A stretch of 64,000 nt of DNA, taken from positions 274,820-338,819 of the forward strand of contig JAJVIK010000004.1 in the NCBI GenBank assembly GCA_022072055.1, given 5' to 3'. Origin of the DNA: a bacterium. Its GTDB lineage: Bacteria; Hinthialibacterota; Hinthialibacteria; OLB16. Made by a program: the position numbers and the translations under genes. Numbering within the stretch: the stretch's first letter is position 1; every line of letters starts with the position of its first letter. Positions 36,623-51,161 of the stretch are shown here, one piece after another. The notes beneath the pieces are model-generated. The model had not been told where the DNA came from. It did no database searches and saw only the letters and a program-made list of their open reading frames with translations.

Positions 36623-37837
36623 ATGAGCAAATTCACCGGGCAAGGTTCGCGCCCGAATTCAATTCTCTTTTGGGTCCTGTTACTGGTCGCACCCGGGCGC
36701 TCCTTGGCCGGAGAGAGTGATCTCGTTCACTTCACCTTGGCGGACATGGATGGGGATCGCGACCGGGATGTGGTCGTGGCGCGCGACGGCACCATCTCGG
36801 TCCTCCTCAACTCCGGGAACGCCAGCCTGATGGCCACTGCTCCGATCTCGGCCACCCAAGTGTCCCGCGTGGCCGCGGGAGACATCAACGGGGATGGCCT
36901 CCCGGATGTGGCCTCGCTGCAACAGAATCTGGGGACACTCGTGGTCCACCTAAACAGCGGGAATGGTCAGATTGCCTCGGGAACATCTTTCGTCGTGGGT
37001 GGAGACCCATCTGCGATCGCGCTGATCGACCTGGACCGAGATCGCGACCTGGATATCGCCGTGACGCGGCGCGCGGCAGGTGATGTGTTCTTGTGGTTCA
37101 ACGACGGAACAAGTCTGTTTCCCCTTTCCGCCACGGTGACCGTGGGGGCCACTCCACACCTGCTCCTTCCGAGTGATATCGACCGGGACGGATTCCCGGA
37201 CCTGGTCGTGTTCCATGACACGCAACCGCCCCGGTTGCACATCTTGAGGAACCTCGGAAATCGGAATTTCGAGGGGCGGCCGCCGATGGACCTCGGCTTC
37301 ACCCCAAGCGGGGGAGCTGCGGCGGACCTCACTGGAGATCGACTGCCGGACTTGGCGCTCGCGGATTTCACCTCGGACTCGCTTCAGATTCTGAGGAACG
37401 AAGGGGAGTTCCATTTCGTGGCGGGGGATGTCATTCAAGCCGGTTCCGGGCCAACCTCCATCGCCGCGCGGGATATCGACTCGGACGGGGACTCCGACCT
37501 TGCCATCGCGAATGCTCCCGAAGTGACTGGGGCAACGCGCGGAGTGCTTCTGCTCTTCAATAACGGGGATGGGACCAGTTTCTTCAGCAATCTGGTGCTG
37601 ACACCCGATAACTCCGTTCCGCTTCAGGTGGAAATTGCGGACATGAATGGGAACTGCCGTCCCGACATCGTGGTGGCCCTGGAACGTGTCGAGCCGATAA
37701 GGATTGTGCTGAACGAGATCGATCCCCCTCCGCTCTTGCCGCATGGGCTTTCGGAACTACTGATGGACCGTCTCGACCAGGAGATCGAAGCCCTCGATTT
37801 ATTCTGCGGCGCTCGTCGGTGGTACAGGCAACCCTAA
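36623..37837 (+). CDS. Secreted FG-GAP/VCBS repeat protein (Ca-binding propeller)
   Basis: 404 residues with a signal peptide (LFWVLLLVAPGRSLAG, cleavage near residue 30). Seven Asp-rich blades follow with the D-D-GD-PD pattern: DMDGDRDRDVVV, DINGDGLPDVAS, DLDRDRDLDIAV, DIDRDGFPDLVV, DLTGDRLPDLAL, DIDSDGDSDLAI and DMNGNCRPDIVV. These loops bind calcium and form an integrin-like beta-propeller used for surface adhesion or as a scaffold. The start at 36623 is chosen by the GGGGAGAGGGGAAAA ribosome site. The end shares four bases with the convergent DUF4434 gene. Confidence 0.88.
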   Translation: MSKFTGQGSRPNSILFWVLLLVAPGRSLAGESDLVHFTLADMDGDRDRDVVVARDGTISVLLNSGNASLMATAPISATQVSRVAAGDINGDGLPDVASLQQNLGTLVVHLNSGNGQIASGTSFVVGGDPSAIALIDLDRDRDLDIAVTRRAAGDVFLWFNDGTSLFPLSATVTVGATPHLLLPSDIDRDGFPDLVVFHDTQPPRLHILRNLGNRNFEGRPPMDLGFTPSGGAAADLTGDRLPDLALADFTSDSLQILRNEGEFHFVAGDVIQAGSGPTSIAARDIDSDGDSDLAIANAPEVTGATRGVLLLFNNGDGTSFFSNLVLTPDNSVPLQVEIADMNGNCRPDIVVALERVEPIRIVLNEIDPPPLLPHGLSELLMDRLDQEIEALDLFCGARRWYRQP

Positions 37838-38871
37838 CGGGGCGAGATTCGATAGGCTTCGTAATACTCCTTGGCCGCTCCTGCGAGGGAAGGTCTCCAG
37901 AACTCGGTATAACCCCAGGTGACCAAGGCTTCGGCGTATTCGGCGGCGATCTCGATCTTGTGCTTCAGCTTCTCCAGGGGAACTCGCCGCCAGTGGCTTC
38001 CCTGGCCGCCAAGGTCCACTTCGGCGCGAATCTCCTTATAGGCTTCGACACTCGCCACATCCAGCTCGGCGGACTCCACATTTCCCCAGAAGGCGGCTCC
38101 GGCCCGGTTGCAGGCTTCTCGCCCGGCCTCGAGGAACGGTCGCCGCTCCTCAAGGGAGTAACAGGCCAGATGCTCGCCGCTGTCCTGAAGCACCAGGATG
38201 TCGATCTCGGTTCTTTTCAGTGTCTCCGCCCAGAACCGAGTGAATTCCTCGGGGGCAATCCACTCGAAGCCGAGCACCCCCTTCCTGTCCAAAAGAAAGA
38301 AGGGGGAAAGCATGACCGGCTTTCCGGGAGATTCCTTGGCGCACCGTTTGCGAATTCCAGCCAAGAGCGACTGGTACTCCTTGGCGTACTCGCCGGTCGC
38401 GTGGTGGGTTTCGTATCCGATATACCAGCCCCAGAACGAGGGATACCCGGCGTACTTTTCGAGAACCTCTGGAATGAGCTCTTCGTTTTCCTGGGCTTCC
38501 TTGCGCCAATCCACATCCTTCCACCAGCTCGAGGAGGTGTGGGTTTCCAGGACCACGCGCATGCCAAGCCGCTCGGCCTCCTTGAAGAGGATCGGGTACG
38601 GGTCCGCGCACTGCTTTTCGTGGACCGCGCGCAGGACATGGGTGGTGGAACAGAGCCACAGGAGATCGAAGCCGATTTCTTTTTGCGCGGCGATCTCTGT
38701 CTTCCAGAAGGCCTCGTCCGCTTTGCTTACATCCGAATACAGCCACCAGAGCGCGCCTCGGATTCGTTTGTCAGGGACCGGTTGTGTGGGCCCCATGCTT
38801 GCGGCAGCCGGCACGGCCAGGGATGCCGCGCCCCCGAGGCAAAAGGCCCTTCGACTCAACCCCTGGCGCAT
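37834..38871 (-). CDS. DUF4434-family protein with a Tat signal
   Basis: 345 residues. The N terminus SRRAFCLGGAASL is a twin-arginine export signal. The rest resembles the DUF4434 TIM-barrel family, related to glycoside hydrolases: GFDLLWLCSTTHVLRAVHE, GMRVVLETHTSSSWW, YPSFWGWYIGYETHH, LQDSGEHLACYSLEERRPFLEAGREACNRAGAAFWGNVESAE. Glutamates in YIGYETHH and NVESAE are candidate catalytic residues by analogy with barrel glycosidases. It follows tsaC by nine bases. Its TAG stop overlaps the TAA of the convergent FG-GAP gene. Confidence 0.8.
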   Translation of the reverse strand: MRQGLSRRAFCLGGAASLAVPAAASMGPTQPVPDKRIRGALWWLYSDVSKADEAFWKTEIAAQKEIGFDLLWLCSTTHVLRAVHEKQCADPYPILFKEAERLGMRVVLETHTSSSWWKDVDWRKEAQENEELIPEVLEKYAGYPSFWGWYIGYETHHATGEYAKEYQSLLAGIRKRCAKESPGKPVMLSPFFLLDRKGVLGFEWIAPEEFTRFWAETLKRTEIDILVLQDSGEHLACYSLEERRPFLEAGREACNRAGAAFWGNVESAELDVASVEAYKEIRAEVDLGGQGSHWRRVPLEKLKHKIEIAAEYAEALVTWGYTEFWRPSLAGAAKEYYEAYRISPR

Positions 38872-39674: not shown

Positions 39675-42395
39675 GTGAAGAGCCATCTTTTTCTGAATTC
39701 CATCGTTCGGCCCGCGCGGTATGTGGCCGGAGAATACAACCTGAAGCCCCTCAAGGGCGCCGCCCAAGTCAAATGGTGTTTTGCGTTCCCCGATGTGTAT
39801 GAGGTCGGGATGTCCTTCACGGGGATGAACCTCTTGTATGGCCTCCTGAACGGCGCGGAGGAGAGTTCTTGCGAGCGGGTCTTCGCGCCCTGGGTGGACG
39901 CGGAACGAAGGCTTACGGAGCTGGGCCTGCCGCTCTCCAGCCTGGAAACCGGAACCCCGCTCGGGGAGTTTGACATTCTCGGCTTTTCCCTTCAGCACGA
40001 GATGAATTACACGAATATCCTCACCATGCTGAGCAGCGCCGGGATTCCACTTCTCCAAGCGGAGCGCGACCACCATCACCCGCTGATCATCGGGGGCGGA
40101 GCCTGCGCGTATAACCCGGAACCCGTGGCGGACTTCTTCGATGCCTTTGTGATTGGGGATGGCGAGGAGGTGGTCTTGGAGATCAACCGGCTGCTCGCGG
40201 AGATGCCGGTGAAGTCGGCCCCGCGCGACCAACTGCTGCGCGCGTTGGCCGGAATACCCGGGGTCTATGTCCCCTCGCTCTACACAGTCTCCTATCACTC
40301 GGACGGGACCGTGGCGGGGTTCGCCAAGGCCTATCCGGAGCTCCCGCTCCCGGTCGAGGCGCGTAAGGTGAAACTCAGCGGAGCCTACTTCAACTCCACG
40401 CCGATGGTGGCCTCGACCGAGACGGTTCACGCCCGCGCGGCGATCGAGGTTCTGCGCGGCTGCACGCGCGGCTGCCGGTTTTGCCAGGCGGGCTACCTCA
40501 CCCGTCCCGTGCGCGAGAGACCCAGCGAGGAGATCATCCGCCTTGCGCGTGAGATGATGCGGAACACCGGGCTGGATGACCTCTCGCTCCTCTCCCTTTC
40601 CACCGCGGATCACAAGAATTTGCCCGGGATCATCGATGGGCTGATGGAGGGTTGGGACCGTTCGCTCAAGATCTCGCTCCCTTCTCTCCGGATCGATGGG
40701 TTCGACTTGCGGGTCGCCACACGGCTGGCGGAGCTCCATCAGACGGGATTTACGTTCGCTCCGGAGGCGGGCACGCGCCGTCTGCGGAAGGTGATCAGCA
40801 AGGACCTGGGCGAGCGGGAGATTTTCGCCACCCTTGAGGGGGTGTTTCAGCGCGGCTGGCAGACCATCAAGCTGTATTTCCAGATGGGGCTTCCCACTGA
40901 GACATACGATGACCTGGATGGGCTGGCGGATTTGGTGCGACGGGTCCGCGACCTTCTGGTCCGAAAGGTCCCCAAGCGACCGAAGCTCAATGTCTCGGTC
41001 AACCCGCATGTTCCCAAGCCGTTCACCCCGTTTCAGTGGTTCGGACAGGATGACCTCCCGAGCTTCCAGGAAAAGATCCGTTATCTCAAACGCATTCTTC
41101 CGCGCGGGCCGGTGAACTTCAGTTACCATGACCCGCGCCTCTCGGTTCTCGAGGGAATCATGGCCCGCGGGGACCGTCGCGTGGGAAGGGCGATCCTGCG
41201 GGCCTGGGAGCTGGGGTGCCGTTTTGATGATTGGCGGGAGACCTTCCACTTCGACAGCTGGATGCGCGCCTTCGAGGAAACCGGGGTCGAGGTTGCCTTC
41301 TACAACCAGCGGGAACGAGGCAAGGATGAAGTGTTCCCCTGGGAGCTTGTGTCCTGTGGGGTCGAGCGGAGCTATTTCCGGCTCGAATGGACAAGGGCCA
41401 TGAAAGAGAAGGCCACTTACGATTGCCGGGACCGCCGCGGCTGTACGCTCTGTGGCGTCTGCACGGAGACCTATCGGCATGATCTCTACCCAGCCGAGAC
41501 CTTGGAGGGAGGGCCTTCGCTTGTGGATCTGGCGTCGCTGCTCTCAAGCGGGAAGGAGCGGGACAAGTCGGAAGCTCCACATTTGGAGGAGGAGCCGGGC
41601 CTATGCGCCCTCATCTCCTCGGAGCTCGAACTGGAGCGGAGCGAGGCGCCCTCTCAAGATGTCGCCTTAAGGACGCTGCGTCTCCGTTTCTCGAAGACCG
41701 GCCCCGCGCGTTGGCTCTCGCAGCTCGATCTTCAGCGTGTCCTAGTCCAGACCTTCCGCCGCGCGGAGCTGCCGCTGGCGACCTCCACCGGGTTCAATCC
41801 CAGGGCGCAGCTCTCCTTCGCGATGGCCTTGCCGGTCGGGACAGAAGCCTATTCGGAATGGGTGGATGTGGATGTCCGCGCGGAAGGCTTGGTGGACAGC
41901 TTGAGTGTCGGGGACCTGTTGGCTCGTCTATCCGGTGTCAGCGCCCCCGGCATCACTTTTCAGGAAGCAGAATGGATTCCAGCGGGCTCCCCTTCGCTGG
42001 CGCACTCCGCCCGTCGCCTCGAGGGGGAGGTCCGCTGGATCCCTGAAACGCCCACCCCTGAGCAGGTCTATGAGGTCCTACGGGAGGGCATCGCGCGATA
42101 CGAGAAGACCGGCTCGCTTCTCGCGCATCGCGCGGCCCGCGAGGGAAAACCGGCCAGGACCGTGGAGCTCGCGCCATTCATCGAATCCCTCGAATTGGAA
42201 CTGGAGGAGGGGTTGCCCGTGCTCCGGGCGACTCTAAGCGTGGAGGGGGGTCGAACAGTCCGTCCGGATGAGGTGGCGCTGGCCCTGGCGGGGTCGGAAC
42301 CGCTCGAACCGGTGTATCTGGATGTCCGCCGGGTCGCCTTGATCCTGGAAAGCAACCTTCACGCGCTGCCGGCAGTGGGCGGGAACCGGCGCTAA
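39675..42395 (+). CDS. Radical SAM protein (TIGR03960-like) fused to DUF2344
   Basis: 906 residues beginning at GTG 39675. Residues 30-200 resemble the B12-binding-like N-terminal domain of this family (FAFPDVYEVGMSFTGMNLLY, SLQHEMNYTNIL). Radical SAM cluster cysteines are C263, C267, C270 in RGCTRGCRFCQAG; FTFAPEAGTRRLRKVISKD is the conserved substrate-side stretch. From about 685 comes DUF2344 (LRLRFSKTGPARWLSQLDLQRVL, GFNPRAQLSFAMALPVGTE). In many bacteria the two are one gene or adjacent, often near rne/rng or Obg; the reaction is unknown, with roles in RNA modification suspected. Confidence 0.92.
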   Translation: MKSHLFLNSIVRPARYVAGEYNLKPLKGAAQVKWCFAFPDVYEVGMSFTGMNLLYGLLNGAEESSCERVFAPWVDAERRLTELGLPLSSLETGTPLGEFDILGFSLQHEMNYTNILTMLSSAGIPLLQAERDHHHPLIIGGGACAYNPEPVADFFDAFVIGDGEEVVLEINRLLAEMPVKSAPRDQLLRALAGIPGVYVPSLYTVSYHSDGTVAGFAKAYPELPLPVEARKVKLSGAYFNSTPMVASTETVHARAAIEVLRGCTRGCRFCQAGYLTRPVRERPSEEIIRLAREMMRNTGLDDLSLLSLSTADHKNLPGIIDGLMEGWDRSLKISLPSLRIDGFDLRVATRLAELHQTGFTFAPEAGTRRLRKVISKDLGEREIFATLEGVFQRGWQTIKLYFQMGLPTETYDDLDGLADLVRRVRDLLVRKVPKRPKLNVSVNPHVPKPFTPFQWFGQDDLPSFQEKIRYLKRILPRGPVNFSYHDPRLSVLEGIMARGDRRVGRAILRAWELGCRFDDWRETFHFDSWMRAFEETGVEVAFYNQRERGKDEVFPWELVSCGVERSYFRLEWTRAMKEKATYDCRDRRGCTLCGVCTETYRHDLYPAETLEGGPSLVDLASLLSSGKERDKSEAPHLEEEPGLCALISSELELERSEAPSQDVALRTLRLRFSKTGPARWLSQLDLQRVLVQTFRRAELPLATSTGFNPRAQLSFAMALPVGTEAYSEWVDVDVRAEGLVDSLSVGDLLARLSGVSAPGITFQEAEWIPAGSPSLAHSARRLEGEVRWIPETPTPEQVYEVLREGIARYEKTGSLLAHRAAREGKPARTVELAPFIESLELELEEGLPVLRATLSVEGGRTVRPDEVALALAGSEPLEPVYLDVRRVALILESNLHALPAVGGNRR

Positions 42396-42439: not shown

Positions 42440-45400
42440 TTACTTCATTCCCTTCAGAAGGTCGATCAGGTCGTTCGATTCGATATTTCCATTCCCATCC
42501 AGGTCGGCGGGGTTCCCCTGGTTGTTCCGCTGGTACTCCTTGGAGAACCCAAACAGGTCGAGCCCGTTGACCGCGTTATCCGTGTTGATATCGGAAGCGG
42601 CCCAAGTCTTCATCTCAAGCGCGAGGCTCCGGCCCCCCGCCGCGAGCTGGATCGAGCCGCCTCCCGAAGCGACGTCCAGAATCACCGCGCTTCCGGAGTC
42701 CTTGACCTCGGCGCGCAGGCGACGTGGGAGGTCGCCGATCGGCTCCACGGTGAGGACAGCCTCCCCGGCGCTGGTCGAAAGGACCGTGAGCGGGATGCGA
42801 ACCCCCGCGCGCACATCCGAGGGTGAGCACATGTCACGCAACAGGATGCCTGTCGCGCCCCACCCGGCGCGATTGACATAGAAGTCAAATTCGAGGTCGC
42901 TCGGGCGCGCCCAGGGTGGGAAGATCGACTCGACATCGGCTCCATCCAACCCGGCGCTCGCGCCCGGATAGGCCCCCACCACCAGGGTCCGGACCTCGCC
43001 CTCGGCGGAGGTCAGGGTCAGGCGATAGCCCCAACCCTCTGGATCCACCTTGTCCGGAATCTCCTGGAGGTCTTGGGGGACCTCATCGGCGGCCTCTTTG
43101 TCCCCGCTCTTGTTGGTGAAATCGAAGATCTGCGGCCAAGGCGTGCTGTCGTTGACCAGGGGCGGACGGTTAAACACAAAGCGGGTGTCGCGCGAGGCCG
43201 CCAGGCCATATTGCACGAAGCACCCCTCCGTCGGGCGAAGGGTTCCATTCCAGGGACTGAACAAGACCGGAATCTCCGGGTCGCCCTGAATCTCCAGGAA
43301 CTGCTCACCCACCCAGCGGTTGAATCGGCGCACCGATCGAACCACATCCGGAACCGGAATCGCGGTCAACGAAGAGGTCGGCAGTCCCGTTCCCGGATCC
43401 TCGACCGCCTGTTCATAGACCCGGATCGAGAAGGCGTAGGGGTTTCCGATCTGGATCGCGGTCGGGAACGTGAGCGGGGTGTTCAGCGGACGCGACTGGT
43501 CATAGGACCCCTCCCAAACCGTTCCGAGGGAAGGAAACGCCACTCGCGGGTAGTTCGCAGCGGGCTGGTTTGGTGCGTGGTTCAGGAAATAACCATCGAG
43601 GGTAATGTCCCCCGGAATGCGACGCACCATCGAAAACGCTTCTCCCGGGTTGATGATGGTGGTCGGCTCAAGCAGCGGGTTGGGGGGATTGTATCGGGCG
43701 AAAGACACGTTCTGGGTCCGCGCCGGATCCCAACGCACGGCGTGGAACGGCGTGGTGCTGACATTGATCAGACCGAAATCATCCTCCAGTTGGTTCCGCA
43801 AGGTGGAGCCGAATAGGGTCGGGTTGAAGGGACGATCCAATCCAACCACCGGGAACGAAAACATCTGCCAGTGGCTTGGCGCGCAGTCGCCGCAGAAGTG
43901 CGGGAACCCGCGCCGCAGAAGGTCATCATCCCGATAGGGGCTGACTGTCACCTGGAGCCCCGCGTTCAGCGGGTTGGTGCATTCGCCGCGCACCCGAATG
44001 GTCGTGGGGCCGTGCAGCAAAGTCGGGAGAGGCGGGTTGGTCCCATTGATCGGAGTCCCAAATGAGGTGTTCACCGGGATCTGAACTTGCACGGTGACAA
44101 ACTGTGTCTGGCCCGGTGTCAGCTCAAATTCGGCGGGCAGGATTGCAATGTTTTCGTGACCGATGGTCGGGGTTGAGCCATCCGCCGGAAGGAGGATGTT
44201 CTGAAGCGCCAGGTGGATCGGGCCGCTTTGGACAAAGCCATCCACCTCGGCGACCACAAAGCTCCCCAGGAGATGGGGTTGGACTCCATTCCCCGCTCCG
44301 ACCTCGCCCGCGAGATCGAGGTTCAGGTCTTGGAGCGCCAACCGCGGCCAGCGCACGAAGGTGGAGACCACATCCGAAAGGTCGCCATCCACGGTGGACG
44401 CGCGGATGCGGACCTCGGTGTTGTTGACCGGGAGTCGAGCGCCATCCGGCGCGCCGAGATGCAGCACCCACGAATCAAAGCCCTCGCGAATGGTGGCGAC
44501 TTGGTCCACCGGCGCGAAAGCTCCGCCGTTGATACTGAATTCCACCACGTTGATCGGGTCGGCGGGACAGGATTGGACAAAGCCCTGGATCTGCACATCC
44601 GGATCGGTGATGCAGACTTCCAGCGGGCTGGGGGCCTCCAGAGTCACCATCGGCTGGACGCTCAACACCTCGATTTCGACAAAGCGGATCTCGGAGATGT
44701 CGCCATCCACGGTGACCGCGCGAACCTCAATCCGGTTCCGACCGTTCGTGGCGGGGAAGATGAAGGGGAGGTTCCCCCCCGCGCCGGGAGGACCGAGGTT
44801 GATGACATAGTTGGTGAAGGCCTCGCGCGGAGTGGCCAGTGACACCCCCGCGGTGAGGAACGGTCCGGCCGGGTTGGCGGTCACATTGCGGAATTCCACC
44901 CGCTCAATCGGGTCGGCGTCGCAAGTGGCCGCGAAGCCGTGCAATTCGACATCCTCCACGTCATCACAGACAGTGACCACGGCCTCGGATTCGATGGTGA
45001 CATTCGGACTGACGCTCAGAACCTCGACGACCACGCTGACCACGGCGGAAACCGCGCCGCTCGCGGTGATGGCTCGGACTGAAATGGTGCGGTTGCCCGA
45101 AGCGGGCAGGTTCGCTCCCCCGGGCGCGCCAAGGTGGACCACGTAATTGACAAAGCTCACGCTCGAGGTGGCGATGTTCACCCCGGCCGTGGTGAACCCG
45201 GACCCCGTGTTCACCTCCACCCGGTTGATCGGATCATCGTCGCAGGAGGCGGCGAAGCCGTGGAGCTCCACATCCTCCACGTCATCACAGACTGTCACCT
45301 GGGAAGGCGATTCGATGGTCACCATGGGGGTGACCTCGATGACCCGGATCTCCTTCTGCCGGACATCGGTCACCTCGTCGCCGGCCGTGATCGCGCGGAC

Positions 45401-48118
45401 CTCGATCACGTTGGAATTATTGGGCAGACGAGCGCCGCCGGGAGCCTCCAGGTCGATGGTGTAATGGACCAAGACTCCCGAATCCGGCGCGGTCGCCACT
45501 CCGGTGTTGGTAAAGACCGCGAAGGGGCTGCCCACCGGCGCGTTGACCAAGCGCCACTCCACCCCCACGATCGGGTCATCCTCGCAGGAGCCGGCGAAGC
45601 CTTCGATTGCGACCGCCGCGGCGTCATCGCACACGGTCACAATGTCGGGACCGCTGATGGTGATCCCGGTCTCGCAGGGGAGAGTCACCAACCAGGCCCC
45701 GCGTCCCATCGTGCCGACCGCGAGCACATCATCGACGGGATCATATTGCAGGTCATAGGCCAGCGTGTTCGGCAGATTGGTCCCGATCTCGTTCCAGGTT
45801 CCCAGGTCATTGGTTCGTGTCCGGAAGACCCCGATGTCGGTTCCGACAACGACCACATCAAACCCCGCGCGCGGGACATACTCCAGCGAGCGCAGCACGC
45901 CGACTCCGGTCAGATTGCCGGTGATATCTTGCCATGTCGCACCCGCGTCCGGAGTGAAATACACCTGATCGGCATCGATGACATAGGCTTCCATCCAGTC
46001 TTCCGGGTTGACCACGATGTCCAGGACATTGGAGCCGCCAGGGAAAGGCGCCGCGGTGGGGCCGACTGGGCCGCCTTGCACGGTGCGGACAATCACCTGC
46101 TGGAGGGAGCCGACATAGAACACGCCCGGATTGTCGACCCCATTGCGCCGGCCGCCGTAAACGACAGCGTTTTCAACGGCGTTGGCGTTGGGCAACAGGT
46201 TTGGCCCCAATCCCGGTCCGACCTCGAAAAGGTTGTTGCCCTGATCAAAAGACTCATAGATGGAGTTGTCGGCGATAATCAGAAGGCGAGTGGGGATGAA
46301 GCGGTTGAGCTCCACCGGGGTGAGGAAACGCGCGACCAGGGCCGCGCCGGTGGCGGAGACGGTCAGACCAGCAACTGTTCGTCCGCCGAGGGGCGCGTTG
46401 TTGTTATCGAAAGCCTGATAGCCGAAGCCCCCTAGGCTCTGGCTGCTCCAATAGCGGATCGAGCCGTTGGGAACGGTGAGCGTGTCAATCTTCACATCGC
46501 CGCCATCGGCCACGCGAACCGCGGTCCAGCTCGGGTTGCCTGGGGAATCTTGGAGACCTGTGCCGTTGTCCTGGTGCCCGGTCAGGAGCACATCGGCGAT
46601 GGTGTCGTAGGCGATGTCGTGAACCTCGGTCACGCGCAGGTCCCCCACGATGGAGAACCAGTCGCCGGTGTTGTTCTGGGGGTTGGTGCGCCGGAAAACG
46701 CCGCCGTCATCGCCCTCGATGATGTTCCCGTTGGCGTCGAAGGCCATTTCGCGCGAGTCGGCGTGCGGCGAGCTGCTGTTGGCTGTTCCGCCGCCCGCCG
46801 CGCCGAGGGCGTTGGAATGGGTCAAGTGCGCCCACTGGGTCCCCGCGGCCGCGGCGGCGTTGCCCCGAAACAGGCGCCCAGAGAAGTCCGTCGCGCCGAT
46901 CGAATTCGGCCAGGTGGTGGGGGACATCCCCTCGTTGGCGTGCGGCTGACGGTCGCCGCCGACATACACGATGTTGGGGTTATTCGGGTCGGCGACAATC
47001 GAAAAGTGAATCCCGCCCTGCCCGCCGGGTTTCTCGCGCGGCTGGAGACCGATGGCGCCGGTGTTCTCGTTGGTCACGACTTGGTCCATCTGGTTCCAAT
47101 TCCCGCCGCCATTCGGAGAGTTGAAGAACCCCGCCAAGCGTCCGTTATTGATGATCCCCACGAACACGTTGTTGCTGTTGCCGACCGCGATCTCGATGTT
47201 GTTTGTGTTGGCGTCGCTGATCAGTCCATTCATCGCGGGGCTGCTGACACGATTCCAGGTCTGCCCGAAGTTGGTGGACTGGTAGATTCCATTCTGGGCT
47301 CCGGCTTGCGAAATGCCGGTGTAAGCGGTCATTCCGTTGACAGGGTCCACGAAGAGGTCGAAGGCGCGACCGGCCAGGGGTAGATTGCTGCCCGCCATCC
47401 CCGAGATTCGGGTGAACATCTGGCCGCCATCGATGCTTCTGTAGATCCCGGTGTTATTGGTATTGGAGTTGTTCACCGAAACCAGGATGGTGTTTCCTCG
47501 CGCGGCGACTCCCGAGATGTTCAGGCCCGCAAGACCGCCGTCGAGCACGGTCCAGTTGGCGCCGCCATCGGTGGTCCGAATAACCCCGATGCGCGCCCCT
47601 CCGGTTCCGAGATAGGCGCTGGTGCGGCCCGTTCCGCCGATGAGGGTGTTGAAAGTGGCGTCCGTTGTGTCAAATTCCAGCGCCGACATGGACAGCGTGG
47701 GGAGCTGGTCGGTGAGCGGAACCCAATTGGGGCTGGCCGCGGTGGCGTTGTCGGAGCGCCACACGCCACCATTGGCCGCCGCGATGTAAAGGATGTTGGC
47801 GTTGGTGGGATGGGGACGGACCACATGGACCGCGCCGCAGACCGCGTTGTTGGGCGGGCAGTTTTCAGTCTGGCCGTTCTTGAGCGGGCCAGGCCCCTGG
47901 GAGATGGCGCCCTGGTTGACCCCCTTCTCGGACCAGAGCGCGCCCCCCACGGGCGGAGGAATCGGCCCACCAAACCCGGGAGCATCGGGCTGGGCCTCGA
48001 GCCACGCCGGGTCATCGTCCGGCGGCATGACCTCCTGGGCCTCGAGCCTTGCAGCGCTCACGACCAGCGTGAGCATGGCGCTGAGACAAATCACCAACCT
48101 GCCTTGAAAAAGCAACAT
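42440..48118 (-). CDS. Giant secreted BNR/sialidase-like repeat protein with Cys-paired repeats and dockerin-like C terminus
   Basis: 1892 residues. Signal peptide about 1-27 (ends RLEAQ). Residues 95-810 carry BNR/VPS10-like blades with Asp-box-type turns (IRTTDGGANWT, IYQSTNFGQTWNR, YFTPDAGATWQ, IYRSIDGGQMFT), the form of two propellers seen in sialidase and xyloglucanase folds. Residues 815-1255 are four tandem repeats with paired Cys (C830/C845, C944/C959, C1051/C1066, C1169/C1184). Then a beta-rich region, and residues 1838-1892 form a dockerin-like EF-hand pair (DINTDNAVNGLDLFGF and DLDGNGNIESNDLIDL). No cohesin is present in the window. GGAGGAG ribosome site upstream. Role inferred: a secreted or surface-bound carbohydrate or adhesion protein. 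Confidence 0.85.
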   Translation of the reverse strand: MLLFQGRLVICLSAMLTLVVSAARLEAQEVMPPDDDPAWLEAQPDAPGFGGPIPPPVGGALWSEKGVNQGAISQGPGPLKNGQTENCPPNNAVCGAVHVVRPHPTNANILYIAAANGGVWRSDNATAASPNWVPLTDQLPTLSMSALEFDTTDATFNTLIGGTGRTSAYLGTGGARIGVIRTTDGGANWTVLDGGLAGLNISGVAARGNTILVSVNNSNTNNTGIYRSIDGGQMFTRISGMAGSNLPLAGRAFDLFVDPVNGMTAYTGISQAGAQNGIYQSTNFGQTWNRVSSPAMNGLISDANTNNIEIAVGNSNNVFVGIINNGRLAGFFNSPNGGGNWNQMDQVVTNENTGAIGLQPREKPGGQGGIHFSIVADPNNPNIVYVGGDRQPHANEGMSPTTWPNSIGATDFSGRLFRGNAAAAAGTQWAHLTHSNALGAAGGGTANSSSPHADSREMAFDANGNIIEGDDGGVFRRTNPQNNTGDWFSIVGDLRVTEVHDIAYDTIADVLLTGHQDNGTGLQDSPGNPSWTAVRVADGGDVKIDTLTVPNGSIRYWSSQSLGGFGYQAFDNNNAPLGGRTVAGLTVSATGAALVARFLTPVELNRFIPTRLLIIADNSIYESFDQGNNLFEVGPGLGPNLLPNANAVENAVVYGGRRNGVDNPGVFYVGSLQQVIVRTVQGGPVGPTAAPFPGGSNVLDIVVNPEDWMEAYVIDADQVYFTPDAGATWQDITGNLTGVGVLRSLEYVPRAGFDVVVVGTDIGVFRTRTNDLGTWNEIGTNLPNTLAYDLQYDPVDDVLAVGTMGRGAWLVTLPCETGITISGPDIVTVCDDAAAVAIEGFAGSCEDDPIVGVEWRLVNAPVGSPFAVFTNTGVATAPDSGVLVHYTIDLEAPGGARLPNNSNVIEVRAITAGDEVTDVRQKEIRVIEVTPMVTIESPSQVTVCDDVEDVELHGFAASCDDDPINRVEVNTGSGFTTAGVNIATSSVSFVNYVVHLGAPGGANLPASGNRTISVRAITASGAVSAVVSVVVEVLSVSPNVTIESEAVVTVCDDVEDVELHGFAATCDADPIERVEFRNVTANPAGPFLTAGVSLATPREAFTNYVINLGPPGAGGNLPFIFPATNGRNRIEVRAVTVDGDISEIRFVEIEVLSVQPMVTLEAPSPLEVCITDPDVQIQGFVQSCPADPINVVEFSINGGAFAPVDQVATIREGFDSWVLHLGAPDGARLPVNNTEVRIRASTVDGDLSDVVSTFVRWPRLALQDLNLDLAGEVGAGNGVQPHLLGSFVVAEVDGFVQSGPIHLALQNILLPADGSTPTIGHENIAILPAEFELTPGQTQFVTVQVQIPVNTSFGTPINGTNPPLPTLLHGPTTIRVRGECTNPLNAGLQVTVSPYRDDDLLRRGFPHFCGDCAPSHWQMFSFPVVGLDRPFNPTLFGSTLRNQLEDDFGLINVSTTPFHAVRWDPARTQNVSFARYNPPNPLLEPTTIINPGEAFSMVRRIPGDITLDGYFLNHAPNQPAANYPRVAFPSLGTVWEGSYDQSRPLNTPLTFPTAIQIGNPYAFSIRVYEQAVEDPGTGLPTSSLTAIPVPDVVRSVRRFNRWVGEQFLEIQGDPEIPVLFSPWNGTLRPTEGCFVQYGLAASRDTRFVFNRPPLVNDSTPWPQIFDFTNKSGDKEAADEVPQDLQEIPDKVDPEGWGYRLTLTSAEGEVRTLVVGAYPGASAGLDGADVESIFPPWARPSDLEFDFYVNRAGWGATGILLRDMCSPSDVRAGVRIPLTVLSTSAGEAVLTVEPIGDLPRRLRAEVKDSGSAVILDVASGGGSIQLAAGGRSLALEMKTWAASDINTDNAVNGLDLFGFSKEYQRNNQGNPADLDGNGNIESNDLIDLLKGMK
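44354..45676 (-). repeat. Four tandem Cys-paired repeat modules inside the giant secreted protein
   Basis: Units at residues 815-928, 929-1036, 1037-1156 and 1157-1255, each 100-120 residues: I-SP--VTVCDDVEDVELHGFA-SCDDDPI-RVE ... GAPGGANLP ... EVRAITA-G-VS-V. The second and third units share VTVCDDVEDVELHGFAA exactly. Each holds two Cys 15 residues apart, probably an internal disulfide. Confidence 0.85.
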
Positions 48119-48182
48119 GACACCCTCTCTCCTCCTCTTGCGATCAACCGCGCAAACGCCCGTGACAAACCCGATTCAAGTC

Positions 48183-49928
48183 TCAGTACTCAAGTCTCAC
48201 GAAACCGCCCACCCCATGATCCTTGTAATCTCCGGACCCATCATTGGAGTCGTTGGCCTCAAACTGATAGAAAGTCCCGATCGTGTAGCTCCCGAACTGG
48301 CGGTCGAATCCGAGCCGGGCGATATAGGTGAGATCATCCCGCGTGTCTTCGTCGTACCCGGGAGTGAGCAATCCATCCGGGCCGGAGATCGGCGGCAGAA
48401 CCAGCGTGTTCAGGGTGTCCGCCTTGCGCGCCCTCCAGGTGCGCCAGGCGACATCCCCCACAAGACTCAAATTCGCCTCGCACCAACGCCCGTGAAAGAG
48501 GGTGTGGTTGGCGACCAGGCGCAGACCGTGCTCGTAGAAATCGTAGAAATCTCCATTCGAGGCGTTGTTGCGAAAACGGTAAGACATGCCCATCGCAGTT
48601 TCCGGACAGATCACCCAGGTGTAACCCAGCGAAGTTTCAAAGAGGTCATCCTGACGGTCGCCGTAGATCTCCTTGGTGCATCCGGCGCTGTCGCAGCCGA
48701 AGATGGAGCCGTACTCATCCAGCGCGGGACGGTCATACTGTCGGCGGAGATAGGCCACGCGCAAGCGGGTCTCGAGCGACTCGCTGAAGCGGCGACGCCA
48801 AGTGCCATCCACGCCGAACCCGACATGGTCGGCGTAGCGCTCGATGTCCGACTTGGGCGCGACACCCCCCTGGGCCGGGGGAAGGTCGCCCCCGCCGGGC
48901 GCGGGAGGCGGACCGAGGGTCTTGTCGGGGAGGCCATCCTTGGACACATTGCGGTAGAACAGCGGAGTGCTGAGCGAAAGGGTGTCCTTGTCGGAAAGGA
49001 AGAAGTCGAGTCCCGGAGTCACCCAAAACTCGGTGTAATCCTGGGCCAGGTATTCCGCTTCATCCTGGCGGAGCTGGTCGTGGAAGATGATTCCCCCGCG
49101 CCACCACAGGTCGATCAGCTCGCCCGATTCGCCCCGTGTGTTGAACTCGAGCGAGTGTCGCCAGCGGTTCTCCCCGGTTTCGCTATCGAAGAAATCCAAC
49201 GCCCCGACATACTCGAAATACGTGTTCTGGGCGAGGCGCGGATTGAGATCGAGGCGCAGCCCCACCGCGGCTTGATAGATGAAATCGTCGATCTCGGTGT
49301 CGGTGTCGGCGTGACGGACCAGATCGAAATCGACCTCCTCATCGGTGAGGTGGACATTGCTGTGATAGGTTCCGCCGAACTGGACAAATCCGCTCGGGAT
49401 CACCGCGGGCCCGGGATCGACCGGCGGCTCCATGCTGGCTCCGATGTAGGGACCATCCGAGGGAGGCTCGGCCATCGCGACCTGATCCGGCGCATCCAGT
49501 TCCGAAAGCAGCTTCGGTTCCGATCCAACACCTTCGGGTGAAACCTCCACGACGGCCACATCCGCGCCGGGGGTTCCGATTGCCCCGGTCGTGGGGTTTC
49601 CGGGCCCCCCGACCGAGGCCAATTTCCAACCCTCATCGGCCATGCTTGTGGAGGGTTTGGCCAACACCCAGTTTCTTCCGGACCCGGCATGCTCAACAAC
49701 GGAGAACGTGGCGAAATGGTGAACGGAGAGCTCGGGGGTCCCGACTCCAATCTGATCGGCGATCTTCCGGACCGCCTCAATCACCGGGAGTCCGGTGGGG
49801 GGCATGGGACTTTCTTGCGACCCACTTGCGGCCCACGGTAGAAGAACCAGCGCAAGCGCGACCAACCCGTGGAGTCTCCAACAGGCGCCGGGGACAGACC
49901 TCCCCGAACAGGAAGACGCTTTCTTCAT
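48183..49928 (-). CDS. Outer-membrane beta-barrel protein
   Basis: 581 residues. Signal-like N terminus (LVALALVLLPWAASGSQ), a Pro/Gly-rich 120-residue spacer, then alternating amphipathic strands from about residue 175 (GFVQFGGTYHSNVHL, ..VGLRLDLNPRLAQNTYFEYVGAL, LGYTWVICPETAMGMSYRFRNN, IARLGFDRQFGSYTIGTFYQFEAND) to a C-terminal VGGFVRLEY. The terminal aromatic residue is the outer-membrane assembly signal. Two Cys-containing loops (IFGCDSAGCTK) are unusual. ATG 49928 is chosen over GTG 49937. It lies immediately upstream of the dockerin-like giant (65-base gap) and may bind or export it, but that is inference. Confidence 0.8.
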   Translation of the reverse strand: MKKASSCSGRSVPGACWRLHGLVALALVLLPWAASGSQESPMPPTGLPVIEAVRKIADQIGVGTPELSVHHFATFSVVEHAGSGRNWVLAKPSTSMADEGWKLASVGGPGNPTTGAIGTPGADVAVVEVSPEGVGSEPKLLSELDAPDQVAMAEPPSDGPYIGASMEPPVDPGPAVIPSGFVQFGGTYHSNVHLTDEEVDFDLVRHADTDTEIDDFIYQAAVGLRLDLNPRLAQNTYFEYVGALDFFDSETGENRWRHSLEFNTRGESGELIDLWWRGGIIFHDQLRQDEAEYLAQDYTEFWVTPGLDFFLSDKDTLSLSTPLFYRNVSKDGLPDKTLGPPPAPGGGDLPPAQGGVAPKSDIERYADHVGFGVDGTWRRRFSESLETRLRVAYLRRQYDRPALDEYGSIFGCDSAGCTKEIYGDRQDDLFETSLGYTWVICPETAMGMSYRFRNNASNGDFYDFYEHGLRLVANHTLFHGRWCEANLSLVGDVAWRTWRARKADTLNTLVLPPISGPDGLLTPGYDEDTRDDLTYIARLGFDRQFGSYTIGTFYQFEANDSNDGSGDYKDHGVGGFVRLEY

Positions 49929-50009
49929 AACACCCACCCTTTTCTCTGCTCAAGTTAAAAACAGCCAAAAACAACCAACGAATCGCTTGGGCAAGAACCA
50001 GAAAGCCAA

Positions 50010-50408
50010 TCAGGGACCGGGAGGGGGTCCAGGAACGCCAAACCGCTCCGTGCGACTCCCATCCGCGTGCTCCGGATTGTCCGCTTCACGGATGGTGTCG
50101 CGGAAATCGGAATACAGGAGATAATCCACCTTGCGCAGGGAGCGCTCGACCTCGGGTTGGGTGCAGGCGAGCCGTTCCCCCCACTTGGTGGGGGCATAGT
50201 GTGCTGCGCCTCGCGGCCCGATGGTCTCCATTTCGTTCTTGCGGACCGGGTTGGTCTTGAACCAATGGAACGCCGAGCGGGTCTTGGACCAGCAGTTGCT
50301 CCAGAAGGATGGGGCCCGTTCCGGGCCAAAGGGTTGGGCGGAGGCGAGCTCTCCACCCACCAGAACAGCCACCAGGATGGCCGCCCCGATTGTATAGTGG
50401 CGCATCAT
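50010..50408 (-). CDS. Small secreted protein of unknown function
   Basis: 132 residues. Signal peptide (HYTIGAAILVAVLVGGELASA), then a basic, Trp- and Tyr-rich mature part (PSFWSNCWSKTRSAFHWF, GERLACTQPEVERSLRKVDYLLYSDFRDTIREAD) ending in a Gly/Pro tail. No family recognised. ATG ATG at 50408-50403 follows GGAGGAAA. A five-base hairpin (CCTCT/AGAGG, 50421-50434) overlaps the start of that ribosome site. It heads the cluster with the barrel and the giant repeat protein. Confidence 0.65.
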   Translation of the reverse strand: MMRHYTIGAAILVAVLVGGELASAQPFGPERAPSFWSNCWSKTRSAFHWFKTNPVRKNEMETIGPRGAAHYAPTKWGERLACTQPEVERSLRKVDYLLYSDFRDTIREADNPEHADGSRTERFGVPGPPPGP

Positions 50409-50571: not shown

Positions 50572-50600
50572 AGAGTATCTTCCAGGCTTCCCTAAGTCAA
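50572..50600 (-). promoter_or_regulatory. Putative promoter of the small secreted/barrel/giant cluster
   Basis: On the minus strand TTGACT (50600-50595), a 17-base spacer and TACTCT (50577-50572). Gives a leader of about 155 bases before ATG 50408. Confidence 0.45.
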
Positions 50601-50858: not shown

Positions 50859-51161
50859 ATGGCTAAGGGAAAAGGAAAACCCGTTCCGAAGATGGTTGAG
50901 CCAGTCCGCCCCGTGGAAGCCGAGCGGCTCCCGGAAGCGGATCCGGAACGGTTTTCAGCACTGGAGTATCTCGTCGTGAATGCGGTTTTCTGGCTGTTTT
51001 GCTTGGTCAACCTGTGGGTTGTCCAGTGGTTTATGGGAGAGTCGACCGGCCTCTTCTTCTTTTTCGGAATCATGGCTGTCGGTTTTTCAGCCGCCTGTTT
51101 GCTCTCGTATCTGCACGACCGCTTTTATGAGGATGATTTGCCCGAGTCGGAGTCTCCCTGA
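50859..51161 (+). CDS. Small two-span membrane protein, unknown function
   Basis: 100 residues. A basic/acidic Pro-rich cytoplasmic start (MAKGKGKPVPKMVEPV) is followed by two adjoining membrane spans (VVNAVFWLFCLVNLWVVQWFM and TGLFFFFGIMAVGFSAACLL) and an acidic tail. I do not recognise a family. No good Shine-Dalgarno is at normal distance (GGAG lies 15 bases away), and two hairpins precede it. Codon content and hydrophobic organisation support a real gene. Confidence 0.7.
   Translation: MAKGKGKPVPKMVEPVRPVEAERLPEADPERFSALEYLVVNAVFWLFCLVNLWVVQWFMGESTGLFFFFGIMAVGFSAACLLSYLHDRFYEDDLPESESP

Follow-up and report, generated by a model that had tools for sequence, protein, structure and literature searches.

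The 64,000-nucleotide stretch of DNA analysed here (the window) carries three consecutive open reading frames on its minus strand, encoding a small protein, an outer-membrane β-barrel (P0002) and a giant protein (Table 1). Giant and barrel genes are separated by 64 bases, and barrel and small-protein genes by 81 bases, or 72 if translation begins at the GTG. The codon log-likelihoods of the three frames were 0.21, 0.21 and 0.17 per codon, compared to approximately -0.5 to 0 for the five other frames. Their GC3 was 0.75-0.79, and the codon usage of all three is that of the neighbouring genes and the host, unlike that of their other frames. The three same-strand frames that the earlier note had picked out are therefore real genes. 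Each of the products has an apparent signal peptide by inspection, so that all three look exported, as had been proposed. None of the three proteins matched a phage family.

The genes are flanked on both sides by plus-strand genes, a radical SAM gene and a gene for a 100-aa protein, which makes the trio a plausible operon of its own. Collectively, these results suggest a compact set of three exported proteins that are probably co-transcribed. The earlier note had also described one good promoter upstream, and this was not borne out. No sigma-70-like site reached the scan threshold upstream of the trio, and the best promoter-like sites in the 450-base upstream gap agreed at 8 of 12 bases (e.g. 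TTGACT-17-TACTCT at 50600), a score matched by 449 of 500 shuffles and so at chance level. Further out, the minus strand encodes a DUF4434 protein (E 5e-30) with an apparent twin-arginine-like N-terminus (SRRAF). The 100-aa product looks like a membrane protein and matches no Pfam family; its gene is present in 12 of the 14 class genomes, and in both family members it is followed by the same YjeF-type gene.

Table 1. Coordinates of the three genes, their neighbours and the related barrel loci.
Feature	Location	Strand	Details
Small exported protein	50010..50408	-	132 aa; AGGAGG ribosome-binding site directly 5' of ATG
Outer-membrane β-barrel (P0002)	48183..49928	-	581 aa from ATG; end 49937 if GTG start
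Giant secreted protein	42440..48118	-	1892 aa
Propeller domain of giant	45614..47941	-	residues 60-835; VPS10/sortilin-like
Dockerin-like C-terminal segment of giant	42455..42595	-	residues 1842-1888
Radical SAM gene	39675..42395	+	
Gene for 100-aa protein	50859..51161	+	
DUF4434 protein	37834..38871	-	
Cyclase operon, own genome	L028:4929-10606, contig C5		barrel, cyclase, FG-GAP secreted protein
Cyclase operon, OLB16 (G001)	L027, L030		barrel, cyclase, FG-GAP secreted protein
Cyclase operon, JABTUV01 (G005)	L026, L029		barrel, cyclase, FG-GAP secreted protein
Cyclase operon, G004	L066		FecR protein, then barrel and cyclase
Cyclase operon, G002	L068		barrel and cyclase seen before contig end

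Domain make-up of the three products

The apparent signal peptide of the small protein ends ...ASA/QP, leaving a mature part of 108 aa. The description of this protein as Trp-rich and basic holds only mildly, as the mature part has 4 Trp in 108 residues and 16 K+R against 14 D+E, with a pI of 8.7. That it belongs to no known family stood: no match was found in Pfam/NCBIfam or in the phage family searches. A search of 386 genomes for orthologues returned its own locus alone, with none in the 13 class relatives. Seven further matches in these genomes (E 0.001-0.01) were taken as chance; five of the seven had an internal stop codon.

The giant protein consists of a signal peptide, a propeller (residues ~60-815), four Ig-like repeats (~815-1245), a β-rich region without a family match and a dockerin-like C-terminus. 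The propeller region searched alone (residues 60-835) passed the Sortilin-Vps10 cut-off of 33 with 35.3 bits, while the whole protein scored 30.4 bits, below the cut-off. The propeller also matched the F510_1955 family glycosylhydrolase at 1.5e-13, below the family cut-off. Predicted from its single sequence, its fold had a mean pLDDT of 33 and was unusable. The four repeats are diverged, each ~100-115 residues long, with Cys pairs 15 residues apart (830/845, 944/959, 1051/1066 and 1169/1184). The earlier label of giant repeat protein is thus right as to the presence of repeats, but the protein is a multidomain propeller protein and not tandem-repeat throughout. No TPS or autotransporter domain was found in the giant, its N-terminal part matching Sortilin-Vps10, and at the sequence level neither the last 648 residues of the giant nor the small protein showed a TbpBBD-type cargo domain. 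The C-terminus resembles Dockerin_1 without reaching its cut-off (E 0.0018-0.0055, 17.3-18.9 bits against 22.9). Dockerin-like segments occur in all 14 class genomes, at 33 places in the own genome and at 3-51 in the others, and those at two loci (L019 and L032) are 40% identical to the giant's. Several very large open reading frames in the own genome carry such segments; one segment (G000:C6:215096-215227) lies inside an open frame of 5570 residues.

The AlphaFold model of P0002 was built from three sequences, so that both the number of strands and the order of the fold matches are approximate; it is a monomeric barrel of ~16 strands with a mean pLDDT of 53.5, mostly 60-85 in the barrel part. 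The barrel domain spans residues ~176-580 and is preceded by a poorly ordered N-terminal stretch. This stretch (~40-175) is the long periplasmic spacer of the earlier note: the stretch does exist, although the model has no confidence there, and neither a POTRA nor a TPR match was found in it. The top Foldseek matches of the model were OmpG, AlgE, CymA, OprD-type channels and PgaA. No Omp85/FhaC match was obtained in Pfam/NCBIfam or among the fold matches listed, in agreement with the earlier statement that the barrel is not of this type. At the sequence level, P0002 fell short of every curated cut-off, with EpsL at E 6e-4 (18.9 bits against 275), TIGR03016 at E 5e-4 (19.3 against 90.85) and SlipAM, a weak match, at E 0.02 (14.9 against 22). 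P0004, a relative of P0002, scored 22.8 bits for SlipAM, just above the same cut-off, and matched TIGR03016 at E 1.3e-18, below its cut-off. TIGR03016 and EpsL are families of PEP-CTERM-associated outer-membrane proteins. Sequence searches of solved structures with barrel, giant and propeller gave nothing significant, the plasmid collection searched held no relative of the barrel, and PF00593 detected no TonB-dependent receptor barrel in the own genome. With moderate confidence, P0002 is predicted to be an outer-membrane barrel closest to porins and polysaccharide exporters and not to Omp85/FhaC.

Absence of the trio from class relatives

The locus was compared with 13 other genomes of the class, of which two, one being OLB16, belong to the family of the own genome (family, three genomes including the own; genus, one). 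The own genome is a relative of Candidatus Hinthialibacteria OLB16 and appears to fall within Candidatus Hinthialibacterota or close beside it. Conservation of the trio as a block, proposed earlier as a check, was not seen: none of the 13 relatives, the two family members among them, has the trio, which was found in one genome only. Rare adjacency of the three genes in relatives, which the earlier note had set against its own reading, is what the comparison returned, with three family genomes compared. The giant has no orthologue in the class; similarity at the level of the propeller was seen in distant genomes and dockerin-like segments within the class.

In OLB16, the orthologue of the radical SAM gene is followed by a convergent giant gene, and the orthologue of the 100-aa gene is the first on another contig. 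The presence of the trio in the OLB16 slot was ruled out, as BLAST found the giant there, a HYDIN-type protein, to be unrelated to that of the window. The OLB16 giant (L058:3416-10333, contig C102) has HYDIN/Cep192-type Ig repeats and exceeds 2300 residues, its frame being truncated where the contig stops. Different genes flank the radical SAM gene of G002. On the two cases seen, the slot may attract giant surface genes or the resemblance may be coincidence.

Barrel paralogues beside CHASE2 cyclases

Five other copies of the barrel were found in the 14 class genomes, one of them in the own genome, and all five lie in a different operon. This operon has the layout (FecR protein)-barrel-CHASE2 adenylate/guanylate cyclase-(FG-GAP propeller protein) and occurs in 5 of the 14 genomes (Table 1). 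A secreted FG-GAP propeller-type protein is encoded downstream in three of the five loci, while the remaining two are truncated by the end of their contigs. Comparison by hhalign of a profile of the cyclase-operon barrels with P0002 gave a probability of 99.7 (E 1.4e-26) over 354 columns, covering residues 180-584, that is, to the last residue. The identity of P0002 to these barrels is 21-26%. The family's cyclase-operon barrels group together in the tree with 100/100 support and to the exclusion of P0002, which sits on a long branch; this indicates that P0002 is an old paralogue and not an orthologue. The tree gives no firm order of branching between P0002 and the barrels of G004 and G005. 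A tblastn search of the window with the cyclase found no CHASE2 cyclase relative, so that no cyclase is adjacent to P0002. Neither the small protein nor the giant was found beside any of the five other barrels. Going by sequence, P0002 is an old copy of the cyclase-operon barrel that has diverged fast, here without a cyclase and upstream of a propeller giant.

It is plausible that the FecR-barrel-CHASE2 cyclase-FG-GAP operon is an outer-membrane-to-cyclase sensing system. A profile comparison of these barrels with the alphaproteobacterial TPR barrels found beside CHASE2 cyclases was not significant (probability 6.7). On the Paracoccus plasmid pAMI5 (L073:2014-7659) and the Shinella plasmid p1 (L076:1114-7284), genes for a TPR-barrel protein, a FecR protein and a CHASE2 cyclase stand in series. 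The TPR-barrel protein of pAMI5 has a weak SlipAM match, and the FecR protein of these loci has a weak C-terminal match of TbpB_B_D/FHBP type. These gene rows may connect type XI secretion with signalling by cyclases; the T11SS papers searched make no mention of FecR, CHASE2 or cyclase.

Interpretation and comparison with known systems

Tentatively, at a probability of about 0.4, we read the trio as a lineage-specific cell-envelope operon in which the barrel would be a channel or receptor beside the secreted propeller protein and not its exporter. The relatives of the barrel are partnered with a CHASE2 cyclase, which favours a channel or receptor role for P0002 over export of the giant. Sec would export all three proteins, and the barrel would insert in the outer membrane. 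The giant would leave the cell by a general route, for which type II secretion would fit, and would act on a surface or an extracellular polymer, by binding or processing it. The barrel might then sense or import a ligand released by this action, with the small protein as a periplasmic accessory. Secretin domains are present at four places in the own genome, although these secretins could serve pili rather than type II secretion. A bolder and unlikely version is that the regular partner of the barrel family is a secreted β-propeller that docks on the barrel with an outside ligand, and that the cyclase reads this state in most loci; the trio would then be an offshoot that retained the barrel and the propeller, lost the cyclase and gained a new small periplasmic partner.

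A more ordinary account, somewhat unlikely in our judgement, is that the barrel is a porin-like substrate channel and the giant one of many large dockerin-tailed secreted proteins, the genes sharing a transcript or merely DNA without forming a joint machine. Porins and diffusion channels are the top fold matches of the barrel, dockerin-like segments are widespread in the class and here lie partly in frames of thousands of residues, OLB16 carries an unrelated giant in the slot next to its radical SAM gene, and the promoter is not above chance. Such an account sits less well with the compact one-strand island, its short gaps and opposite-strand flanks, and with the secreted propeller protein that also follows a barrel paralogue in three other loci.

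Judged unlikely is the alternative that the barrel is an exopolysaccharide secretin of the EpsL/PgaA/AlgE kind and the giant a matrix protein binding the exported polymer. The EpsL and TIGR03016 profiles give weak matches to P0002, the latter a stronger one to P0004, and AlgE and PgaA, which are of the same fold class, are among its top fold matches. However, all matches of P0002 are far under the curated cut-offs, that of EpsL covers only ~110 residues, and no polysaccharide synthase was seen among the adjacent genes scanned.

It appears quite unlikely that the barrel serves to carry either the giant or the small protein through the outer membrane. Gene order and proximity suit such a role, and as in type XI (Slam) secretion the barrel adjoins a secreted protein. 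SlipAM matches are sub-threshold in P0002 and just above cut-off in its relative P0004. In contrast to SlipAM/DUF560 systems (PMC8406197, PMC12282271), the trio has neither a TPR domain nor a TbpBBD-type cargo domain, and the ~16 strands predicted for P0002 exceed the 14 of T11SS barrels (PMC8406197). Two-partner secretion (FhaC/FhaB) likewise places a barrel gene next to that of a giant exported protein, but here no Omp85 barrel, POTRA or TPS domain was found and the giant is a VPS10-like propeller protein. Moreover, the trio is not conserved, and the conserved partner of the barrel family is a cyclase. The dedicated export pair put forward earlier is therefore disfavoured. The trio is so far restricted to this lineage and built on a paralogue of a known barrel type. 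The data do not support it as an undescribed export system. If the pairing of barrel and propeller is functional, it would show how an uncultured phylum redeploys cyclase-associated barrels alongside new secreted proteins. Otherwise, a supposed export system is removed, and the FecR-barrel-CHASE2 cyclase-propeller operon of the same genome remains a conserved, testable signalling candidate.

Sensing by the CHASE2 cyclases CyaK, CyaD1 and CyaD2 of Sinorhizobium meliloti depends on an outer-membrane barrel, NsrA (PMC7529298, PMC13001267). A barrel serving CHASE2 cyclases resembles the layout of the paralogous operon and offers a model for its working. The trio differs in having no cyclase, and the likeness of the paralogous operon is one of plan. 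The cyclase-operon barrels of Hinthialibacteria differ from P0002 in their surroundings, as P0002 has no adjacent FecR protein or cyclase, and has the small protein upstream and the VPS10-like giant downstream. They are nevertheless homologous to P0002 over the barrel, share with it the same N-S-D...Y motif near the C-terminus and, like it, stand in loci that encode secreted proteins, there after the cyclase.
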